Source: Egibacter rhizosphaerae (GTDB lineage Bacteria; Actinomycetota; Nitriliruptoria; Euzebyales; Egibacteraceae). From it: a stretch of 64,000 nucleotides of DNA. The notes beneath the pieces are model-generated. The model was given only the letters and a program-made list of their open reading frames with translations, did no database searches and had not been told where the DNA came from. The translations under genes were made by a program, and so were the position numbers. The stretch lies in assembly GCF_004322855.1 (NCBI RefSeq), contig NZ_CP036402.1:2232001-2296000 (forward strand). The letters are read 5' to 3'. This document shows positions 7,240 to 31,689 of the stretch, piece after piece (the first letter of the stretch is position 1; each line of letters starts with the position of its first letter).

Positions 7240-7365
7240 GCGCCCCCTTGTACCGCACGCGACTGGTCGGTGGGTTCGTAGCGCGCTATCCGGAGTGGCA
7301 TCCGAGTCTGGCACGGGATCGGGCGCCGGATCAGGCGCGGGATCGGGGTGACCAAGAATCGCCGT

Positions 7366-22595: not shown

Positions 22596-23540
22596 TCACC
22601 ACGTGACCTCCTCACAGCCCTCGTGGCTCTCGGGCTCGATCTGCACCGTCGCGTGCTCGATCCCGTACTCGCGCGCGAGCACCTCCCGCGCGCGGTCGAG
22701 CACGGCGTGGGTCTCCGCATCATCGGCGACGACGAGATGCGCGGTCAGGACCTCCATTCCCGACGTCAGCGTCCAGACGTGCACGTCGTGGACGTCCGAT
22801 ACCTGGTCCACGCGCGCGAGACGTGCTGCCACCTCATGCGGGGGCGCGTGGGGCGGGGCGGCCTGCAGGATGATGCGACCCGCTTCACGCCCCAGCCGCC
22901 AGGCACGCGGGACGATGAAGAGCGCGATCAGCCCCGCGAACAGCGGGTCGGCGTAGGGCCAGCCGGTGAGCAGCAGCACGAGCGCCGCGAGGATCGCCCC
23001 GACGGAGTTCAAGGCGTCCGCGAGCACCTCGAGGTACGCGCCCCGGATGTTCAGGCTCTCCTGCGCCCCCCGGTGCAGCAGGACGAACGCGACGAGGTTG
23101 ACCCCGAGGCCGACCGTGGCAACGGCCAGCATCGGGACGGCCGCCACCTCGGGAGGATCGGCCACACGCCGGGCGGCCTCGACGAGGACCCACCCCGCGA
23201 CGCCGAGCAGCAGCACCGCGTTCGCGAGTGCCGCGAGCACTTCCAGGCGGTAGAGCCCGAAGCTGCGGCGGGGATGGGCCCACCCGCTGGCCGCGACCTG
23301 GATCGCCGCGAGGGCCATGCCGATCCCGACGACGTCGGTGAGCATGTGCCCGGCATCGGACAGCAGCGCCAGCGAGCCGGTGAGCAAACCCGCGACGAGC
23401 TCGACGACGAAGAACGTGGCGACGAGCACGAGGGCCAGGGCCAGCCGCGAGCGGTGAGCTCGCGCGGCGCTGGAGTGGGTGTGTCCGGGCATGCCGCTCA
23501 CTCGCGTGTGCTCATCGGATGCTCGATTCCTGGTCCTCAC
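22596..23540 (-). CDS. Cation diffusion facilitator metal exporter
   Basis: 314 aa from GTG 23540, whose GTGA overlaps the stop of the upstream ABC gene; ATG 23492, giving a His-bearing start (MPGHTHSSAARAHR), is the alternative. Six membrane helices span residues about 30-215 and a cytoplasmic domain follows (VHDVHVWTLTSGMEVLTAHL). The metal-site motif in helix 2 is HMLTD; in helix 5 it is EVLAD rather than the commoner HxxxD. CDF proteins exchange protons for Zn, Co, Ni or similar ions. Its coupling to a nickel-type importer is notable: it may be the safety valve. Confidence 0.82.
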   Translation of the reverse strand: MRTRNRASDEHTRVSGMPGHTHSSAARAHRSRLALALVLVATFFVVELVAGLLTGSLALLSDAGHMLTDVVGIGMALAAIQVAASGWAHPRRSFGLYRLEVLAALANAVLLLGVAGWVLVEAARRVADPPEVAAVPMLAVATVGLGVNLVAFVLLHRGAQESLNIRGAYLEVLADALNSVGAILAALVLLLTGWPYADPLFAGLIALFIVPRAWRLGREAGRIILQAAPPHAPPHEVAARLARVDQVSDVHDVHVWTLTSGMEVLTAHLVVADDAETHAVLDRAREVLAREYGIEHATVQIEPESHEGCEEVTW

Positions 23541-24211
23541 CCTCGCTCAGGAGCGCTGGTGAGCTCGTCGATGGGGACGACCTCGCCGCACCAGTGTCGC
23601 GCGACGGCCCGGTCATGGGTGAGGAGGAGCACCCCCATGCCGTGATCGTCCTGCACCTGAGCGATGACCTCCAAGAGGGCCGCCTGGGTGGAGACATCCA
23701 GCATCGCGGTCGCTTCGTCAGCCACCAGGTAACCGGGCTCACAGGCCAGCGCCCGGGCGAGACAGGCCCGTTGGAGCTGACCGTCCGAGACCTCGTGCGG
23801 ATGGCGGCCCAACAGCTCCGCGGACAACCCCACCCGCGGGGCCCAGTGCTCCACGACCGGCGCGGGGTCGTCACCGACCAGCGCGGCGGGCTCGCCCACG
23901 ACGTGTCGCAGAGTGGCCCGTGGGTCGGTGGCCGCGCGAGGGGACTGCCACAGGAGCTGCACTCGGCGCCGCAACCATCGGGGCGCGGCGGTACCTGCCC
24001 GGGGGACTGGTACGCCGTCGACGATGACGCACCCAACGTCGGGGGCGTACAGCAGGGCGAGTACACGCGCGAGCGTCGACTTGCCCGACCCGCTCGGTCC
24101 GGTAAGGCCGAGGCGCATCCCGGGTTCCAGACGCAGCGACACGTCGGAGAGGGCCGTGACCGCACCCGGCCCCCGGCCGTAGCGGCAGGTGATCGCTTCA
24201 GCGGTGAGCAT
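23537..24211 (-). CDS. nikE: Nickel/peptide ABC transporter ATP-binding protein
   Basis: 224 aa from ATG 24211. Walker A GPSGSGKST, the Q-loop in LLWQSPRAATDPR, a variant signature VSDGQLQRACLARAL (DGQ in place of GGQ), Walker B YLVADEATAMLD and the switch histidine LLTHDRAV. It belongs to the Dpp/Opp/Nik ATPase family and is shorter than usual because it lacks the C-terminal oligopeptide extension. It is the last gene of the five-gene importer. The nickel assignment comes from the operon's Nur box, not from this protein. Confidence 0.82.
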   Translation of the reverse strand: MLTAEAITCRYGRGPGAVTALSDVSLRLEPGMRLGLTGPSGSGKSTLARVLALLYAPDVGCVIVDGVPVPRAGTAAPRWLRRRVQLLWQSPRAATDPRATLRHVVGEPAALVGDDPAPVVEHWAPRVGLSAELLGRHPHEVSDGQLQRACLARALACEPGYLVADEATAMLDVSTQAALLEVIAQVQDDHGMGVLLLTHDRAVARHWCGEVVPIDELTSAPERG

Positions 24212-25169
24212 GGTCGAGACAGCGCACGTACCCGCCACGGACCGCGACGGGTCGGGGAACAGCGTCGTCGCACGCGAGCTGGTGGCGCTCACAGCGCGGC
24301 GCGAAAGGGCAGCCCGGGGGAAGGTCGGTCAGCTCGGGCGGCATCCCGGGAATGGGCACGCCACCGCGCTCGGGGAGAGCGGCGAGGAGGCCCTGGGTGT
24401 ACGGGTGGGCGGGCGCGTCGAACACCGCACTCGTGGGCCGATCCTCCACGAGATGTCCGGCGTAGAGCACGGCGGTGTCGCCACCGAGGCGCTCGGCCAG
24501 GCGTAGGTCGTGGGTGATCACTAGTACGGCCGTGCCATGCTCGGCGAGGCTGACGAGACCGTCGGCGGTGTCCGCGGCGAGATCGGCGTCCAGCGCCGAG
24601 GTCGGTTCGTCCGCGACGACGAGCGCGGGATGGCCGAGTTTCGCGGCGGCGATCAGGACCCGTTGCTGCATGCCGCCGGAGAGCTGGTGCGGATAGCGGC
24701 GTGCGACCGCATCGAGGGACAGGTCGAGTTCGCGCAGGGCGGCGTCGACCCGCTCGGGTGCCTGCTCGGCCGGGATCCCCTTGACGCGGGCGAGCTCGGT
24801 GAGTAGCGAGTCGAGCCGACGAACCGGGTTGAGGGAGGTCGCTGGGCTCTGTGGCACGAAGCCGACATGCCGGGCTCGCAGCTCTCGTAGCTCCCGGGCC
24901 GATGCGCCGACGAGGTGGCGCGCCGCCAAGCGCACGGCCCCAAGAACTTCGGCATTGCGCGGCAGGAGTCCCAGCAGCGTGTGGGCCAGGACGCTCTTGC
25001 CGCTGCCGGACTCGCCGATGACGACGCGGGTCCCCCCAGGGGCGAGATCGAACGACAAACCCGCGAGGGCCGGCACCACCCCACGGCGGGTGCGGAACCG
25101 CACCCCGAGGTCGGCAACGTGCAGCACCTCCTCGGCGACCCGCTCAGCGCACACCGGCAACGTGCTCAC
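24198..25169 (-). CDS. nikD: Nickel/peptide ABC transporter ATP-binding protein
   Basis: 323 aa from GTG 25169 (GTGA overlap with the permease stop). Walker A GESGSGKSV, Q-loop FVPQSPATSLNP, signature LSGGMQQRVLIAAA, Walker B LVVADEPTSALD, and the family C-terminal motif HPYTQGLLAALP followed by the cysteine-containing CPFAPRC. The last motif binds an iron-sulfur cluster in some Dpp-type ATPases. It pairs with the shorter ATPase downstream to drive import. Confidence 0.85.
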   Translation of the reverse strand: MSTLPVCAERVAEEVLHVADLGVRFRTRRGVVPALAGLSFDLAPGGTRVVIGESGSGKSVLAHTLLGLLPRNAEVLGAVRLAARHLVGASARELRELRARHVGFVPQSPATSLNPVRRLDSLLTELARVKGIPAEQAPERVDAALRELDLSLDAVARRYPHQLSGGMQQRVLIAAAKLGHPALVVADEPTSALDADLAADTADGLVSLAEHGTAVLVITHDLRLAERLGGDTAVLYAGHLVEDRPTSAVFDAPAHPYTQGLLAALPERGGVPIPGMPPELTDLPPGCPFAPRCERHQLACDDAVPRPVAVRGGYVRCLDHAHR

Positions 25170-26068
25170 AGCTCGAGCTCCGCGCGCCACCGTGGCTGCT
25201 GCCGCTGCTGCCACCACTCTCCAACGGTTCCGATCGCCACCGAGGCGAACACGATCGCGAAGCCGGGGAACAGCACGACCCACCACGCGCCGGCGAACAG
25301 CGACTGTTGTCCGTCCGCGATGAGCATCCCCAGCGACGGCTCGTGCGAGGGCATGCCGACGCCGAGAAACGAGAGGGCGGACTCGTGAAAGATCGCGTGA
25401 GGGAACAGCAGAACAAAGCCCACCCCGGCCGCCGGCAAGACGTGCGGCAGGAGGTGGCGCGCGATGACCTGGCGCCGCGTCGCGCCGATCCCCACGGCCG
25501 CGGCCACGAACGGCCGCTCGCGCAGACTGAGTACCTCCGCGCGGAGGATTCGCGCCAGCCGCATCCAGTGGGTCAGCCCGACGGCGAGGGTTACGGCGCC
25601 GGCTCCTCCGACCACCGGATGGGCGAGCACCGCGATGAGGATGCCGAACAACAGGTGGTTCTGTGAGGCGAAGAAGTCGATCGCCCGCATGGCTACCGCA
25701 TCGACACGCCCCCCGACCGCACCGGCGACGAGCCCCACCGCGGCGCCGACGACGAGGGCGACGACGGCGGCCAGCGCGCTCACCGTCAGCGACGTGCGCA
25801 GGGCACGCAACAGCAGCGCCAACAGGTCCCGACCAGTGTCGTCGGTGCCGAGTGGATGCGACCAGGACGGGGATTGCATGACTACCGAGAAGTCGGTGCG
25901 CAAGTGTTCGTCGGGGCGCACCACCTCGGCCCCGACGGCGGCGAGAAGTAGCCCGGCGAGCCCCGCGCCGGCGATGATGGCCGACCACGGTGGGCCGGTG
26001 CCGGCTAGGCGACGAGTCCGCCCGGTGCGGCTCGCCCGCCACGGGCGCACGTGCGCGGCGGTCCTCAT
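25166..26068 (-). CDS. nikC: Nickel/peptide ABC transporter permease 2
   Basis: 300 aa. Six predicted helices; the N-terminal HPLGTDDTGRDLLALLLRA segment and the ATPase-coupling loop (RERPFVAAAVGIGATRRQVIARHLLP) are typical of DppC/NikC. FHESALSFLGVGMPSHEPSLGMLI is the conserved late loop. It overlaps both neighbours by 4 bp (ATGA and GTGA), so translation is coupled. Confidence 0.87.
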   Translation of the reverse strand: MRTAAHVRPWRASRTGRTRRLAGTGPPWSAIIAGAGLAGLLLAAVGAEVVRPDEHLRTDFSVVMQSPSWSHPLGTDDTGRDLLALLLRALRTSLTVSALAAVVALVVGAAVGLVAGAVGGRVDAVAMRAIDFFASQNHLLFGILIAVLAHPVVGGAGAVTLAVGLTHWMRLARILRAEVLSLRERPFVAAAVGIGATRRQVIARHLLPHVLPAAGVGFVLLFPHAIFHESALSFLGVGMPSHEPSLGMLIADGQQSLFAGAWWVVLFPGFAIVFASVAIGTVGEWWQQRQQPRWRAELEL

Positions 26069-27057
26069 CGGGCGGCTTCCCGAATACGCGGATCGATCAC
26101 CCGGTAGGTGAGGTCGGCGGCGAGGTTGCCGACGATCACGAGCACGGAGCCGGCGAGGGTGATCGCGACGAGCAACGGCAGGTCGACCACGGTCGCTGCC
26201 TCGACCGCGAGGTTCCCGACGCCCGGCCAGCCGAAGACGGTCTCGGCCAGGACCGCACCGCCGATGAGCTCGGAGAGGTGCGCCCCGCTCAGTGTCACGA
26301 ACGGCAGCAGGGCGTTGGGCAGGGCATGACGGAACAACACCGCGAGGCGGGACAGTCCGTTGGCCTCGGCGAAGCGCACGTAGTCCTCGCCCAGCACCTC
26401 GAGCAGCTGGTTGCGCACGTACATCGCGAACCAGCCGAACTGCATCGAGGCGAGGGTCACCGCCGGCAGGACGAGGTGCCGGAGGCTGATCGCCGGAAGG
26501 GTGTCCCCTCGTAGGTCGGCCGCCCCGCCGGCGGGGAGCCATCCCAGCCAGACCGCGAACACCCATAGCAGCAGCAGACCGATCCAGAACGACGGCGCAG
26601 CCACCGACACGTACGAGGCCATCCGCACGAGCCAGTCGAACCAGCTGCCGTGAAACGCCGCGGCCAGGGTCCCGGCGGCGAGGCCCCCGACGAGGACGAG
26701 CGCGAGCGCGGTCGACACGAGCAGCGCCGACGGCCCCAGGCGCGCCAGCAGCTGCTCGCCGACCGGCTGGCCGCCGAGCAGGCGGGAGTGCCCGAGGTCG
26801 CCGCGCAGCACGTTCGCGAGCCACCGACCGAACTGCTCGTGGGTCGGCACGTCGAAGCCCCACACGCGCGCAATCCGTTCCGCGGTCTCCGGGCTGACCG
26901 AGCCCGCCGCGGCCATGTAGGCATCCATCGGGTCGTAGGGGGAGACCGCGACGAGCCCGAACGTCATCGCCGCCACGGCAACCAGCACGAGGGGCAGGAC
27001 GAGCAAGCGCCGAACGACGAGGGGCGCAGCGCCGCCGGACCGTAGCCACGCGGTCAT
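26065..27057 (-). CDS. nikB: Nickel/peptide ABC transporter permease 1
   Basis: 330 aa from ATG 27057. DppB/NikB features: the N-terminal helix and YDPMDAYMAA, RWLANVLRGDLGHSRLLGGQ, APSFWIGLLLLWVFAVWLGW, the coupling loop YVRFAEANGLSRLAVLFRHA, and ETVFGWPGVGNL. Six helices in all. ATGA overlap with the binding-protein gene upstream and with the second permease downstream. Confidence 0.87.
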   Translation of the reverse strand: MTAWLRSGGAAPLVVRRLLVLPLVLVAVAAMTFGLVAVSPYDPMDAYMAAAGSVSPETAERIARVWGFDVPTHEQFGRWLANVLRGDLGHSRLLGGQPVGEQLLARLGPSALLVSTALALVLVGGLAAGTLAAAFHGSWFDWLVRMASYVSVAAPSFWIGLLLLWVFAVWLGWLPAGGAADLRGDTLPAISLRHLVLPAVTLASMQFGWFAMYVRNQLLEVLGEDYVRFAEANGLSRLAVLFRHALPNALLPFVTLSGAHLSELIGGAVLAETVFGWPGVGNLAVEAATVVDLPLLVAITLAGSVLVIVGNLAADLTYRVIDPRIREAAR

Positions 27058-28721
27058 TCCTCGAGGCGCCACTCGTGGAGGTTCCACAGGAGCCCGCGCG
27101 ACCACCCGTGGATGTGCCCCTCCATGCGGGCGGGGTCCACGCCCTCCACCCGGTCGCTGACGACCAGCTGGTTGTCGAGCTGGGCGAGGAAGTGCCAGCT
27201 GCCCTGTTCGGCGAGTGCCTCGGCGAGGTCGGCATAGGCCTCGGCGCGTTGGGCGCGGTCGCCGGTCTCCCGGCCAGCCTCGAGCGCGGCGTCAACGTGA
27301 GGGTCCTCGACGTGCCCGGGGTTCGTCCCCGGATCGTCGTCAGCGTGCTCCGAGTGGAACTCGCGGTAGATCGCCAACTCGGGATCGTAGGCGTTGCCCA
27401 GTGTCTGCAAGGACGCCGCGCCATCGGCCACCCGCTCGACGAGTTCCTGGCGACCCGGCTGCTCCTCGGGCTCGACCTCGACGCCGACATCGGCGAGGTC
27501 GTCACGAATGGACAGGATCGCGTCGAGGGTCTGCTCGTCGCCGTGGCCGTGGACGATCGGGAACGACAGCTGATCACCGTCGCGAGTGCGCGCGCCCTCG
27601 TTGTCCCGGGTCCACCCGGCCGCCTCGAGAACCGCCTCGGCCTCCTCGGGGTCGTGCCCCGCGTCGACGGGGTGGTGGGCCCAGTGGTCGGGCGCGAAGG
27701 GCCCTTCCGCCTCCCGGGCAGCGCCCGCGTAAACGCCGTCGATGAGCGCGTCGCGGTCGATGGCCATGCCGATCGCTCGCCGCACCTCGGGATCGTCAAT
27801 CTGCTCGTTCGTGGTCGGGATGGTGAGCGCGAGTTGATCTCCCGGGATGGTGACGACCTCGTGCTCGCTGTCGCCGTCGAAGCGCTCCGCGACCCGCGGA
27901 GGCTGACCGGCCGCGTCCACGTCGACCGCGCCGGCCTCGAGTTGGCTGACCCGCGCGTTGGCGTCGCCCAGAAAGCTGACCACGACCCGCTCCAAGGCGA
28001 CCTCCCCACCGTGGAAGTCGTCGTAGCCGGTCCACACCATCCGCTCGCCCCCGTCGAACGTCTCCATCTCGAACGGTCCAGTCCCGACCGGGTCGAGGTT
28101 GAACTCGGCGGTGTTGAGATCCTCGTCGGCTAGCAGATGCTCGGGCACGATCCCGAGCGTGAGCTTGTCGAGGAAGGCGGGATCACGCCGCGACAGCGAG
28201 AAGGAGACCTCGTGGTCGCCGGTCGCCTCGACGGCCTCGAGCGAGTCATAGAGCTGCTCACGCAGCCCCGTGGCGACCTCCTCGTCGAGGATCGACTCAT
28301 ACGTGAAGACCACGTCGTCGGCGTCGAACGGCTCGCCGTCGTGGAACGCGACGTCGTCGCGCAGTGTGACCGTCACTTCGGTGCCGTCGGCGCTGACCTC
28401 GGGCATCCGGGCCGCGAGGTCGGGCTGGAGCTCGAGGTCGCCGTCGTAGGACAGGAGGCTGGAGAACATCGGCCAGTGGTCGCCGTAGATCGACCCGAAG
28501 ATGTCGCCGAAGATCGGGTTGAGATTGTCCGGCTCACCACCGACCGCGATCACGAGCGTCTCGTCGTCAGGGACTTCCCCGCCCTCGTCGTGCTGCTCCG
28601 TCTGATCGTCGGCCCCGGTGCGGTCCGGGCCCGATCCACCAGGATCGCCCTGGTCGCCACAGGCGGTCAGCACACCCACGGTCGCGCCCATCAGCACGAT
28701 CACCACCAGCTCACGTCGCAT
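27054..28721 (-). CDS. nikA: Nickel/peptide ABC transporter substrate-binding lipoprotein
   Basis: 555 aa. Lipoprotein signal with the lipobox LTAC ahead of GDQGDP, then a very acidic spacer. The solute-binding family 5 fold follows (YDGDLELQPDLAARMPEVS, LRDDVAFHDGEPFDADDVVF, GTGPFEM, VRRAIGMAIDRDALIDGVY). Family 5 proteins bind peptides, nickel complexes or other ligands. The ligand here is inferred to be nickel, because a Nur-type operator lies 51 bp upstream. First gene of the NikABCDE-type operon. Confidence 0.85.
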   Translation of the reverse strand: MRRELVVIVLMGATVGVLTACGDQGDPGGSGPDRTGADDQTEQHDEGGEVPDDETLVIAVGGEPDNLNPIFGDIFGSIYGDHWPMFSSLLSYDGDLELQPDLAARMPEVSADGTEVTVTLRDDVAFHDGEPFDADDVVFTYESILDEEVATGLREQLYDSLEAVEATGDHEVSFSLSRRDPAFLDKLTLGIVPEHLLADEDLNTAEFNLDPVGTGPFEMETFDGGERMVWTGYDDFHGGEVALERVVVSFLGDANARVSQLEAGAVDVDAAGQPPRVAERFDGDSEHEVVTIPGDQLALTIPTTNEQIDDPEVRRAIGMAIDRDALIDGVYAGAAREAEGPFAPDHWAHHPVDAGHDPEEAEAVLEAAGWTRDNEGARTRDGDQLSFPIVHGHGDEQTLDAILSIRDDLADVGVEVEPEEQPGRQELVERVADGAASLQTLGNAYDPELAIYREFHSEHADDDPGTNPGHVEDPHVDAALEAGRETGDRAQRAEAYADLAEALAEQGSWHFLAQLDNQLVVSDRVEGVDPARMEGHIHGWSRGLLWNLHEWRLEE

Positions 28722-28771
28722 CGCCAACTCCGTCCGGATGGACATCACGGTCACGGAGCTGCAAACTACTA

Positions 28772-28796
28772 CTTATTGCAATTCAATCGCAATAAG
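28772..28796. promoter_or_regulatory. Nur (nickel-responsive Fur family) box in divergent promoter
   Basis: A 25-bp near-perfect palindrome (arms CTTATTGC and GCAATAAG, one mismatched pair plus the centre). Its core reads TTGCAA-N5-TCGCAA, which fits the Streptomyces Nur consensus tTGCaa-N5-ttGCAA at all but one base (consensus from memory). It is AT-rich against a GC-rich background. It lies 51 bp upstream of the importer's binding-protein start and 47 bp upstream of the divergent PCuAC gene start, so it could repress both when nickel is plentiful. Confidence 0.8.
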
Positions 28797-28842
28797 GGTC
28801 GGCCCCTCGCCGTCGACCGTTCAGTCGAAGTCGGGAGCACCC

Positions 28843-29292
28843 ATGCGCACGATCACCGTTCCGCGATCTGCCCTCGCGGTCCTGACCGCCCTGCTCCTTG
28901 GTTGCGCCGACCAGCCCACCGTGACCGTCGACGAGCCCACCACGCCCGAACCGACTGGCCCGCACGCTGCGGTCTACGCCACCCTGACCGCCGATCAGAA
29001 CGACGCTCTCATCGGTGCCTCGAGCCCAGTCGCCGATAGCGTCGAGTTGCACGAGACCACCGTGGAGAACGGGGTCGCTTCGATGGCCGAGCTCGACGAG
29101 ATCCCGCTCCCCGAAGGCGAATCGGTCATCCTGCAGCCGGGCGGCCTCCATCTCATGCTGCTCGAACCGGAGCCGCTCCAACAAGGGGACCGCCTCGCCA
29201 TCACCCTCGAATTCGCCGAGGCCGATGCGATGGAGGTCGAGGTACCGGTCGTCGCCACTGCCGACATGCCCGACCATCACGACGACCACTGA
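28843..29292 (+). CDS. PCu(A)C-family periplasmic copper chaperone, lipoprotein
   Basis: 149 aa from ATG 28843 (GGGAG upstream). Lipoprotein signal with lipobox LLGC at about residue 20. The full copper motif H-X10-M-X21-H-X-M is present: H in VELHETTVENG, M in VASMAELDE, and HLM in LQPGGLHLMLLE. The end is His/Asp-rich (DMPDHHDDH). Known members deliver Cu(I) to the CuA or CuB site of cytochrome oxidase. The convergent neighbour is a CtaG oxidase-assembly protein, which fits. Its promoter shares the nickel box, which does not fit simple copper control and is worth testing. Confidence 0.85.
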   Translation: MRTITVPRSALAVLTALLLGCADQPTVTVDEPTTPEPTGPHAAVYATLTADQNDALIGASSPVADSVELHETTVENGVASMAELDEIPLPEGESVILQPGGLHLMLLEPEPLQQGDRLAITLEFAEADAMEVEVPVVATADMPDHHDDH

Positions 29293-29298
29293 CCGCCG

Positions 29299-30213
29299 TC
29301 ACGTCACGTCGCGGTGGGCCAGCCCAACAGCCGGGTCGGCCGACGCGCCAGCGCCGGTGCCGGCGCGTACGCGCTGTTCCCGGACGGCCTGTCGCTGTTC
29401 GACCGCGCGCAGCCAGCGGACGAAACAGGTCGCGGCTGCCAGCGTCCAGACCACGCTGCCGACCAGCACCATGATTCCTCCCCCGAGCTGCTGGTCCTCG
29501 GCGGGGGTGAGCGGAAGTCCGACGGCGGCAGGATTGTGGGCGGCGGCCCATTCGGTGGGCGAGACGATGATCAGCGTCGCGAGCACCGCGCCGGCGGCAC
29601 CGCTGAGCGCGAGTCCCAGCACGCTTCCGCCGGCACGAACCGCCGGGGCGGTCATCGCGGCCCACCAGACAGCATAGGCGGAGCCGATCAGCGCCAGATG
29701 CTCGATGAAGTGCAACGTCGGATCGAACAGGGCTGCCTCGTACACCACCGGCGCGTGCACGATCCAGAGGACGGCCACGTGCGCCAGCGCGATACAGACA
29801 CGGCCGGGACCGCTCAGTGCCCGCCGACGTGCCGACGCGCCGGCGGCGAACACCGGCGCGACCCCACGCACCCAGGACCGCGGCAGTGCCTCGCGCACCG
29901 CGAGGCCCGGACGTGCGAGGAGGATGAGCGGAGGCACGATCGCGATGAGGATCACGTGCTGCGCCATGTGTGCCGCGAACGACCAGTGCCCGTGGTCGTG
30001 CAGCGGCGACCACAACGCGAGGACCAGCACCCCGAGACCCGCGCCGAACGACGTGGCGCGCGCGACACGCTTGGCTCCGCGCCCCCGCCACAGCGCGACA
30101 CCGAAGATCGTGGCCATCGCTCCCGCGACCGCCAACCCGAGCGGGTCCCACTGGTGCGAGGTCCGCACACACCACAGCAGGAACTCGTTCTCGACACCCG
30201 CGGCTCCGGTCAC
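29299..30213 (-). CDS. ctaG: Cytochrome c oxidase assembly protein (caa3 CtaG family)
   Basis: 304 aa from GTG 30213 (AAGG 6 bases upstream; a longer GTG start at 30234 is possible). About seven helices. The conserved HMAQHVILIAIVPPLILLARPG and HFIEHLALIGSAYAVWW histidine-bearing segments define the caa3_CtaG family of membrane proteins needed for copper insertion into cytochrome oxidase. Its stop is 6 bp from the stop of the convergent PCuAC gene. The start faces the cobalamin riboswitch region. Confidence 0.85.
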   Translation of the reverse strand: MTGAAGVENEFLLWCVRTSHQWDPLGLAVAGAMATIFGVALWRGRGAKRVARATSFGAGLGVLVLALWSPLHDHGHWSFAAHMAQHVILIAIVPPLILLARPGLAVREALPRSWVRGVAPVFAAGASARRRALSGPGRVCIALAHVAVLWIVHAPVVYEAALFDPTLHFIEHLALIGSAYAVWWAAMTAPAVRAGGSVLGLALSGAAGAVLATLIIVSPTEWAAAHNPAAVGLPLTPAEDQQLGGGIMVLVGSVVWTLAAATCFVRWLRAVEQRQAVREQRVRAGTGAGASADPAVGLAHRDVT

Positions 30214-30369
30214 GGTGGCCCTTCGACACGGCACGTCGCCAGTCGGGCGAGGCCCTACCCCTGCATCGTCGTTCGAAACGGACCGGTGTTCCGCCTTCGC
30301 GGTCGTCCGACGCCCAGGGGCTCAGGCCCGTGCTTGCGCCGGCCGGGTGCGGGCCCCTAGCGTCCCTCG

Positions 30370-30545
30370 CGTCGTGGTGCACGGGAAGCCGGTGAAAGCC
30401 CGGCGCGGCCCTTGCCACTGTGTACCGGGAAGCGGACTCCGCGTGCTCTGGCCTCGCCCAGGGCGCCACTGGACGCACGAGCGTCCGGGAAGGTAGCGGA
30501 TCGCGCGTTGGACCCGGGAGCCAGGAGACCGGCCACGGCACGACA
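30370..30545 (+). ncRNA. Cobalamin (AdoCbl) riboswitch
   Basis: The conserved elements occur in order: GGTGCACGGGAAGCCGGTGA with AAGCCCGG, then GCGGCCCTTGCCACTGTG, the internal GCCACTGG stem piece, CCGGGAAGG, and the diagnostic B12-box neighbourhood CCGGGAGCCAGGAGACCGGCC in two parts at about 30514-30534. It precedes the btuF-like gene by 38 bp, on the same strand. Binding of adenosylcobalamin would normally shut off expression of the importer. Confidence 0.93.
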
Positions 30546-30582
30546 CAGCCGTCCACAAGGTGATGGAAAGGCGGTCCCTCTC

Positions 30583-31689
30583 ATGGGTCTGTTCGCCCCT
30601 GTGCATCCTGTCCGATCCTGCCCGCACGCGCTTGTGGCCATCGGGTTGTCCGCCCTCTTGCTCGCCGGATGCGACGCCTCCGCCGATGAGGTCCCCTCCT
30701 CCCCCGACGAGGACACCACCGACGAACCCGACGCCGAGACCGGCGCCGACGATGCGGACCCGTCGAAGACGGGTGACGTTCCCGAGACGACGGTGGCCAA
30801 CTGCGATCGCGAGGTCACCGTCGATCAGCCGCCCGAACGCTTGGTCGCGGTCAACACCGCATCGATCGAGAACCTGCTCGCGCTCGGCCTCGGCGATCGG
30901 ATGGTCGCTGCCTCCGGCTCGATCGACGACGTCAGCGAGGAGCTGCAACCCGAGCTCGACGGCGTCGACACCCTCGACACCGGCGGCGACGACTATCCCA
31001 GCCTCGAGCGGATCATCGAGCTCGAGCCCGACTTCCTCTACTCGGTCTATCCCAGCACGTTCCGCGACGACGGCCTGGCCTCGCGCGACGAGCTCGACGA
31101 CCTGGGCGTGGCCACCTACCTCGCCCCGAGCCGCTGCCCCGACCGCGACGAGGACGAGCCGCTCTCGTTCGAGGAGATCTGGGGCGAGTACACCGACCTC
31201 GGGGAGCTGCTCGACGCGGAGGAGGCCGCCGAGCAGCTGGTCGCCGAGCAGCGCGACGAGGTCGAGCAGGCGCGCGACGAGGTCGAGCAGGCGCGCGACG
31301 AGGTCGACGGCAACCTCGGCATGTCCGCGTTCTGGTGGGACGTGGGCACCGCCGACCCGCTGACCGGTGCCTGCTGCGGCGCTCCGGCGATGATCATGGA
31401 CGAGCTCGGGCTCATCAACATCTTCGGCGACCTCGACGGGCACTGGTCGGACGCCAGCTGGGAGCACGTCGTCGAGGAGGACCCCGACGTGATCGTCATG
31501 GTCGACTTCGGTGACGACGACATCGAGCGCAAGCGCGAGTTCATCGCCGAGGACGCGACCCTGTCGCAGCTGCGGGCGTTCGAGGAGGACCGCGTCGTGG
31601 TCCTGCCCTTTCCGCACACCACCCCGGGGCTGCACAACGTCGAGGCCCTGCGCACCCTCAGCGCGGAGCTGGCCGAGGACCAGGAGTGA
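30583..31689 (+). CDS. btuF: Cobalamin ABC transporter substrate-binding lipoprotein
   Basis: 368 aa from ATG 30583. Signal and lipobox LLAGC at about residues 23-27, an acidic spacer of about 40 residues, then the BtuF/FepB type III binding fold (VTVDQPPERLVAVNTASIEN, LALGLGDRMVAASGS, PSLERIIELEPDFLYSVYPS). A long inter-lobe helix carries a short tandem repeat (EQARDEV twice). The riboswitch upstream gives the B12 assignment. The stop overlaps the permease GTG. Confidence 0.87.
   Translation: MGLFAPVHPVRSCPHALVAIGLSALLLAGCDASADEVPSSPDEDTTDEPDAETGADDADPSKTGDVPETTVANCDREVTVDQPPERLVAVNTASIENLLALGLGDRMVAASGSIDDVSEELQPELDGVDTLDTGGDDYPSLERIIELEPDFLYSVYPSTFRDDGLASRDELDDLGVATYLAPSRCPDRDEDEPLSFEEIWGEYTDLGELLDAEEAAEQLVAEQRDEVEQARDEVEQARDEVDGNLGMSAFWWDVGTADPLTGACCGAPAMIMDELGLINIFGDLDGHWSDASWEHVVEEDPDVIVMVDFGDDDIERKREFIAEDATLSQLRAFEEDRVVVLPFPHTTPGLHNVEALRTLSAELAEDQE
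31258..31299 (+). repeat. 21-bp tandem repeat, two copies, inside btuF
   Basis: GAGGTCGAGCAGGCGCGCGAC occurs twice head to tail and encodes EVEQARD twice within the linker helix of the binding protein. A third partial unit follows. It adds two helical turns to the linker. It probably arose by slippage. Confidence 0.8.

Follow-up and report, generated by a model that had tools for sequence, protein, structure and literature searches.

A Nur-type palindrome between a predicted nickel importer operon and a copper-chaperone gene in Egibacter rhizosphaerae, and its candidate Fur-family regulator

Analysis of a 64,000-nucleotide stretch of the Egibacter rhizosphaerae genome (here called the window) revealed a palindrome between a nikA-like gene and a divergently transcribed PCuAC-type copper-chaperone gene. 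This palindrome is probably the operator through which F2, a Nur-like repressor of the Fur family, runs a nickel-acquisition regulon. The computational comparison, which covered about 60 related genomes overall, with box surveys in 30 genomes of the order, revealed the box, its conservation and its links to F2, CbiM, alternative importers and nickel superoxide dismutase (NiSOD). The features of the locus are listed in Table 1.

Table 1. Features of the nik-PCuAC locus (window positions)
Feature	Position	Strand	Basis
Operator-like near-palindrome CTTATTGCAATTCAATCGCAATAAG (Nur-type box)	28772..28796	.	Sequence; 40.1 bits, profile without own-genome sites
nikA-like lipoprotein, SBP family 5	27054..28722	-	PF00496; closest solved structures 8EFZ, 4OET
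nikB-like permease, ATGA overlap with nikA	26065..27057	-	PF00528; best NCBIfam model nickel permease Opp2B, below cut-off
nikC-like permease, ATGA overlap with nikB	25166..26068	-	PF00528
nikD-like ATPase, GTGA overlap with nikC	24198..25169	-	PF00005 + PF08352
nikE-like ATPase, start GTG 24292 or ATG further in	23537..24292	-	PF00005
CDF cation-efflux transporter, sixth operon gene, 4-bp GTGA overlap with nikE	22596..23540	-	PF01545, PF16916, TIGR01297
PCu(A)C copper-chaperone lipoprotein, divergent from nikA	28843..29292	+	PF04314, 99.5 bits

The box is a 25-bp near-palindrome with 12-bp arms around a central C, in which 11 of 12 pairs are matched, and it contains the motif TTGCAA-N5-TCGCAA. 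It fits the Nur consensus tTGCaa-N5-ttGCAA (PMC3919588). The intergenic gap between the two start codons spans 120 bp and holds one box, whose centre (28784) lies 62 bp from the A of the nikA ATG and 59 bp from the PCuAC start. The sequence-only reading had described a 25-bp palindrome matching the Nur consensus, roughly midway between both starts, and both points were borne out. For scoring, a profile was built from sites of other species, and both boxes of the own genome were excluded from it. With this profile the window box reached 40.1 bits, compared with a maximum of 16.6 bits in simulated DNA (4.8 Mb, same composition) and 3.3 bits for the next best place within the window. The six-base half-sites alone are weak evidence because TTGCAA-N5-TTGCAA with 2 mismatches was found at 9 places in the genome versus 20 for a control pattern, and the half-site pattern was rejected as standalone evidence. 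The extended 23-bp palindrome TTRTYGCRA-N5-TYGCRAYAA had two genomic occurrences when up to 3 mismatches were tolerated, and none in 100 shuffles of the window. This extended form decisively excludes a chance match of the window box to the Nur-type pattern. Allowing 3 mismatches brought up no second copy of the 23-bp core of the box in the genome, a single contig of 4.64 Mb. A scan for sigma-70-like promoters around the box recognised none.

A search of the genome for further boxes returned one more, at G000:C1:1718282-1718304. It is positioned just behind znuB and before a gene for a ZnuA-like lipoprotein with a long His/Asp-rich stretch (gene order znuC-znuB-box-znuA), so that both boxes of this genome precede genes for the binding proteins of metal importers.

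Across the order, the box was detected at up to 2 mismatches in 12 of the 30 genomes, and a profile scan placed it upstream of 16 of 18 cbiM/nikM genes; just six of those 16 sites had gone into the profile. In genomes that lack CbiM, the box precedes either a ZnuA-like gene (the own genome, G001, G002 and G015) or a FecCD-like permease gene (G017 and G018). The box-bearing ZnuA gene of G001 adjoins ureG and ureD. A genome of another genus (G025) encodes a NikA 31% identical to that of the window, with a 23.3-bit box immediately before the start codon and no PCuAC gene beside it. G015 carries a 34-bit box between a signal-peptidase (sodX-like) gene and sodN, directly before sodN, and weaker forms occupy the same place in G006, G014, G016, G017 and G018. 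As read from their sequences, the theme common to the box targets across relatives is nickel, and a Fur-family, nickel-linked regulator as the owner of the box is strongly supported by these gene contexts. Near the nik locus, the window also contains a gene for a Peripla_BP_2 (FecB-type) binding protein (30412-31689), which may be compared with the box-bearing FecCD genes of G017 and G018.

The nickel-enzyme complement of the order was examined next to the box targets. NiSOD was found in 27 of the 30 genomes, the window's genome included. Fe/Mn SOD was found in two (G010 and G019), both without NiSOD, and the third NiSOD-less genome is 70% complete; G010 and G019 present a clean swap of SOD type. 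Searches of the window's genome for Fe/Mn SOD, urease and CbiM found none of the three. The nickel hook of its own NiSOD (L095:2517-2867, minus strand) reads HCDLMCG, as it does in several relatives, instead of the usual HCDLPCG or HCDIPCG. Cobalt, instead of or besides nickel, has to be weighed against this complement: F2 would sense Co(II), and the regulon would import cobalt for B12. The box targets of most relatives are indeed annotated CbiM, and G019 has CbiM with a box and neither NiSOD nor urease. However, boxes precede the nickel SOD gene, a box-bearing importer gene adjoins ureG-ureD, a NikA-type target occurs in two genera, and NiSOD is nearly universal in the order. A cobalt regulon is considered unlikely.

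Three Fur-family genes were identified in the genome: zur, within a znuABC-zur operon, a catalase-linked gene, and F2 (G000:C1:2591864-2592217; PF01475, 86.4 bits). The F2 gene of this genome is located far from the window box and adjoins the gene for the mycothiol synthase MshD. In nine relatives (G003, G007, G021-G024 and G027-G029) F2 adjoins cbiM. A scan of named genomes collected 53 F2 loci from Nitriliruptoria, Euzebya-like and Acidimicrobiia-type bacteria, including one distant Roizmanbacteria sequence. The box was present at 18 of 18 F2 loci with CbiM versus 1 of 35 without it (Fisher p about 3e-13, an optimistic value because the loci share ancestry), and this distribution ties F2 to the box. 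The sole box-bearing F2 locus without CbiM is the Roizmanbacteria sequence, in which the box stands right before the regulator's own gene. That site is near-perfect (L224:3969-3991, 38.2 bits, about 10 bp before the matched region) and suggests self-control or transfer. F2 was not found in G019, nor in G015, which has two boxes and is 69% complete. Action of F2 on the box in the window's genome is predicted from orthology.

The profile scan detected no box at the own F2 locus, at the catalase-linked Fur locus or in the own znuABC-zur operon, whose region gave a best score of 5.8 bits; the Zur loci of relatives had none either. Zur was rejected as the box regulator on these grounds, as was the catalase-linked Fur protein, whose locus has no box. 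The same results bear on zinc, under which the box would be a Zur site and the importers would take up zinc. The second box, between znuB and the gene for a His-rich ZnuA-like protein, would agree with zinc, but the own znuABC-zur operon lacks the box and carries a different palindrome, the Zur loci of relatives lack it as well, the linked regulator is F2 and not Zur, and the targets include sodN and a urease-adjacent gene. We regard zinc as very improbable. The different inverted repeat in the znuABC-zur promoter region (L005, about 7316-7342) reads TGACAAC-N13-GTTGTCA and is a candidate Zur site for the lineage.

Searching for solved structures revealed Nur (3EYY) as the best relative of F2, with Fur-type proteins close behind. 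The ligands of S. coelicolor Nur, which we take from the 3EYY work to be H33, H86, H88 and H90 in the M-site and H70, H72 and H126 in the Ni-site, are largely missing in F2. Only H33 and H90 are kept among the ligand histidines, and the positions of H70, H72, H86, H88 and H126 hold other residues, in most cases D, E or N. In F2 numbering, H31, H88, H99, H100, H111 and H116 are conserved in 10 of 10 aligned sequences, and H82 and E79 in at least 90%. According to PMC7055735, the Nur Ni-site may be a crystallisation artefact. The box targets found here resemble the Nur target set described in that paper. In the tree, F2 forms its own clade (support 99); Nur does not join it and sits apart on a long, weakly supported branch. 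YgfZ is reported to lie beside Streptomyces nur (PMC4531530), and a motif search did not find it beside F2. The sequence-only reading had made its nickel interpretation depend on a Nur gene in the genome. F2 is present and its orthologues stand beside the same box, but it lacks the Nur nickel-site histidines and forms a clade of its own. Judged by these comparisons, F2 appears to act as Nur does with respect to its box and its targets; assigning it to the Nur family proper goes beyond that evidence.

The position of the box at sodN adds a puzzle. In six genomes the box-like sites separate a -10-like element from the sodN start codon (L125:3568-3590; L106, L107, L109, L111 and L113). With a nickel-loaded repressor bound there, nickel SOD would, paradoxically, be switched off in the very presence of nickel. 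Either these weak sites are non-functional, or the sensing logic differs from that of Nur. One such logic is that F2 reports iron or manganese sufficiency, represses nickel use while either metal is ample and releases it when the metal is scarce. The loss of the Nur nickel ligands and the joint repression of sodN and importers would be consistent with such gating, and the conserved H31, E79, H88 and H99 of F2 align with what we take to be the PerR/Fur regulatory site. The conserved HH pair of F2, however, is not a PerR feature, and no Fe/Mn SOD occurs in 28 of the 30 genomes, so that repression of NiSOD would leave neither kind of SOD. Gating by iron or manganese thus appears improbable.

The nik operon comprises six genes, nikABCDE and a CDF gene, with 4-base overlaps at most junctions. 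The sequence-only reading had proposed a five-gene nickel ABC importer. Pfam confirmed the ABC system as five genes of the Opp/Dpp type (one PF00496, two PF00528 and two PF00005 domains), and the nickel reading gained support, but the operon has a sixth gene, the CDF gene, after nikE. NikA scored 151 of 600 and 146.5 of 393 against the NCBIfam nickel equivalog cut-offs, and NikB 252 of 350. The substrate is left undecided by sequence models because all of these scores fall below cut-off; the box decides. In the structure-database comparison, NikA was nearer to 8EFZ and to 4OET, which is presumably C. jejuni NikZ, than to E. coli NikA. Nickel is very probably the substrate that the window ABC system imports, as deduced from the box and its other targets. 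Among 66 genomes of the class, neither a close NikA orthologue nor a conserved nik-PCuAC arrangement was found. The CDF protein has the TM5 motif EVLAD, where HxxxD is, as we assume, usual in zinc CDFs; import and efflux in one operon is an odd combination.

The window PCuAC protein has a complete H-X10-M-X21-H-X-M motif with all copper ligands kept and ends in the tail PDHHDDH, in agreement with the motif and His/Asp tail described earlier. The further suggestion that this tail hints at nickel handling fails: in relatives, tails of this type occur on SCO-linked PCuACs and are longer there, and the tail was rejected as a nickel sign. The CtaG gene (29299-30234) adjoins the window PCuAC gene in convergent orientation, and SCO1 lies with the other PCuAC of the genome, which is 46% identical to the window protein and belongs to an SCO1 operon without a box. 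The window PCuAC is most likely still a copper protein.

Nickel control of the PCuAC gene, as claimed by the sequence-only reading, is backed by the shared intergenic region only. Joint control with the importer is plausible because the PCuAC promoter must lie in the 120 bases that hold the box, and a bound dimer midway between the starts would probably hinder both promoters. As the second PCuAC of the genome, the window copy is also free to come under new control. On the other hand, the box may control nikA alone, the PCuAC gene being a mere neighbour with a constitutive promoter of its own. No box was found at the other PCuAC genes in the order, the boxed NikA gene of G025 has no PCuAC alongside, and the boxless SCO1 operon points the same way. 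The literature search found no paper that joins PCuAC, nickel and Nur. We give control of nikA alone slightly less than an even chance, and joint switching, seen in this one genome, stands at roughly even odds. If joint control is real, the most natural reading is that copper handling is adjusted in nickel shortage, rather than that the protein is a nickel chaperone.

For the regulon as a whole, the inferred picture in this genome is that the box is bound by F2, which acts as a repressor with nickel as its signal, and that PCuAC is among the responding genes. When metal is sufficient, F2 would occupy the box, overlapping the nikA promoter region, and both the nikABCDE-CDF operon and the other box-bearing gene, which encodes the His-rich ZnuA-like binding protein, would be switched off. 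When nickel is short, F2 would leave the box, and both importers would be made and would feed nickel SOD. PCuAC, transcribed away from the same region, would plausibly be switched along with the importer. Against this scheme stand the missing Nur ligands of F2, the position of the sodN box, the ability of CbiM to carry cobalt, the box-bearing genomes G015 and G019, in which F2 was not found, the below-cut-off scores of NikA and NikB, and the lack of a recognised sigma-70 promoter.

The proposed scheme names a nickel regulon and its likely regulator for a deep actinobacterial group that mostly has NiSOD and no Fe/Mn SOD. Should F2 sense nickel despite lacking the Nur ligands, nickel sensing would have arisen in the Fur family by a second route; should it not sense nickel, another metal would control when nickel is used. 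Nickel control of a copper chaperone, if true, would tie together two metal economies, which is only suggested here. Tentatively, and with more doubt than confidence, F2 may be seen as a separate Fur branch with its own metal site (H31, E79, H82, H88, H99 and H100). This branch would govern both the uptake and the use of nickel in Nitriliruptoria and Acidimicrobiia, and its sensing logic would depart from that of Streptomyces Nur: NiSOD and nickel uptake could be kept down at the same time, and in this genome the duplicate copper chaperone and the cation-efflux pump would have come under its control as well.

Comparison with the closest known systems covered, first, Nur of S. coelicolor, with which the locus shares the tTGCaa-N5-ttGCAA box, the nikABCDE target, the link to nickel SOD and, in 3EYY, the best solved relative of F2. 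F2 differs in lacking H70, H72, H86, H88 and H126 and in its conserved histidines 82, 99, 100, 111 and 116 (F2 numbering). It also neighbours cbiM in many genomes, and in relatives sodN itself can carry the box; S. coelicolor Nur represses sodF (Fe SOD) in nickel, whereas no Fe/Mn SOD was found in the window's genome. Zur of Actinobacteria resembles the system in belonging to the Fur family and in the one ZnuA-like box target, but the true Zur of this genome lies in a znuABC operon without this box. As in NikABCDE/NikZ-type importers, the window operon encodes an SBP family 5 protein, two permeases and two ATPases, and its NikA has a C-terminal motif like that of 4OET (GHIHG...WNLHEW); it differs in the NikA and NikB scores below the NCBIfam nickel cut-offs and in closing with a CDF efflux gene. 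With the PCu(A)C chaperones (e.g., S. coelicolor SCO3965, 3ZJA) the window protein shares the full copper motif, the lipoprotein character and PF04314, but its gene and the nickel importer operon diverge from a common box, and it does not stand beside SCO1.
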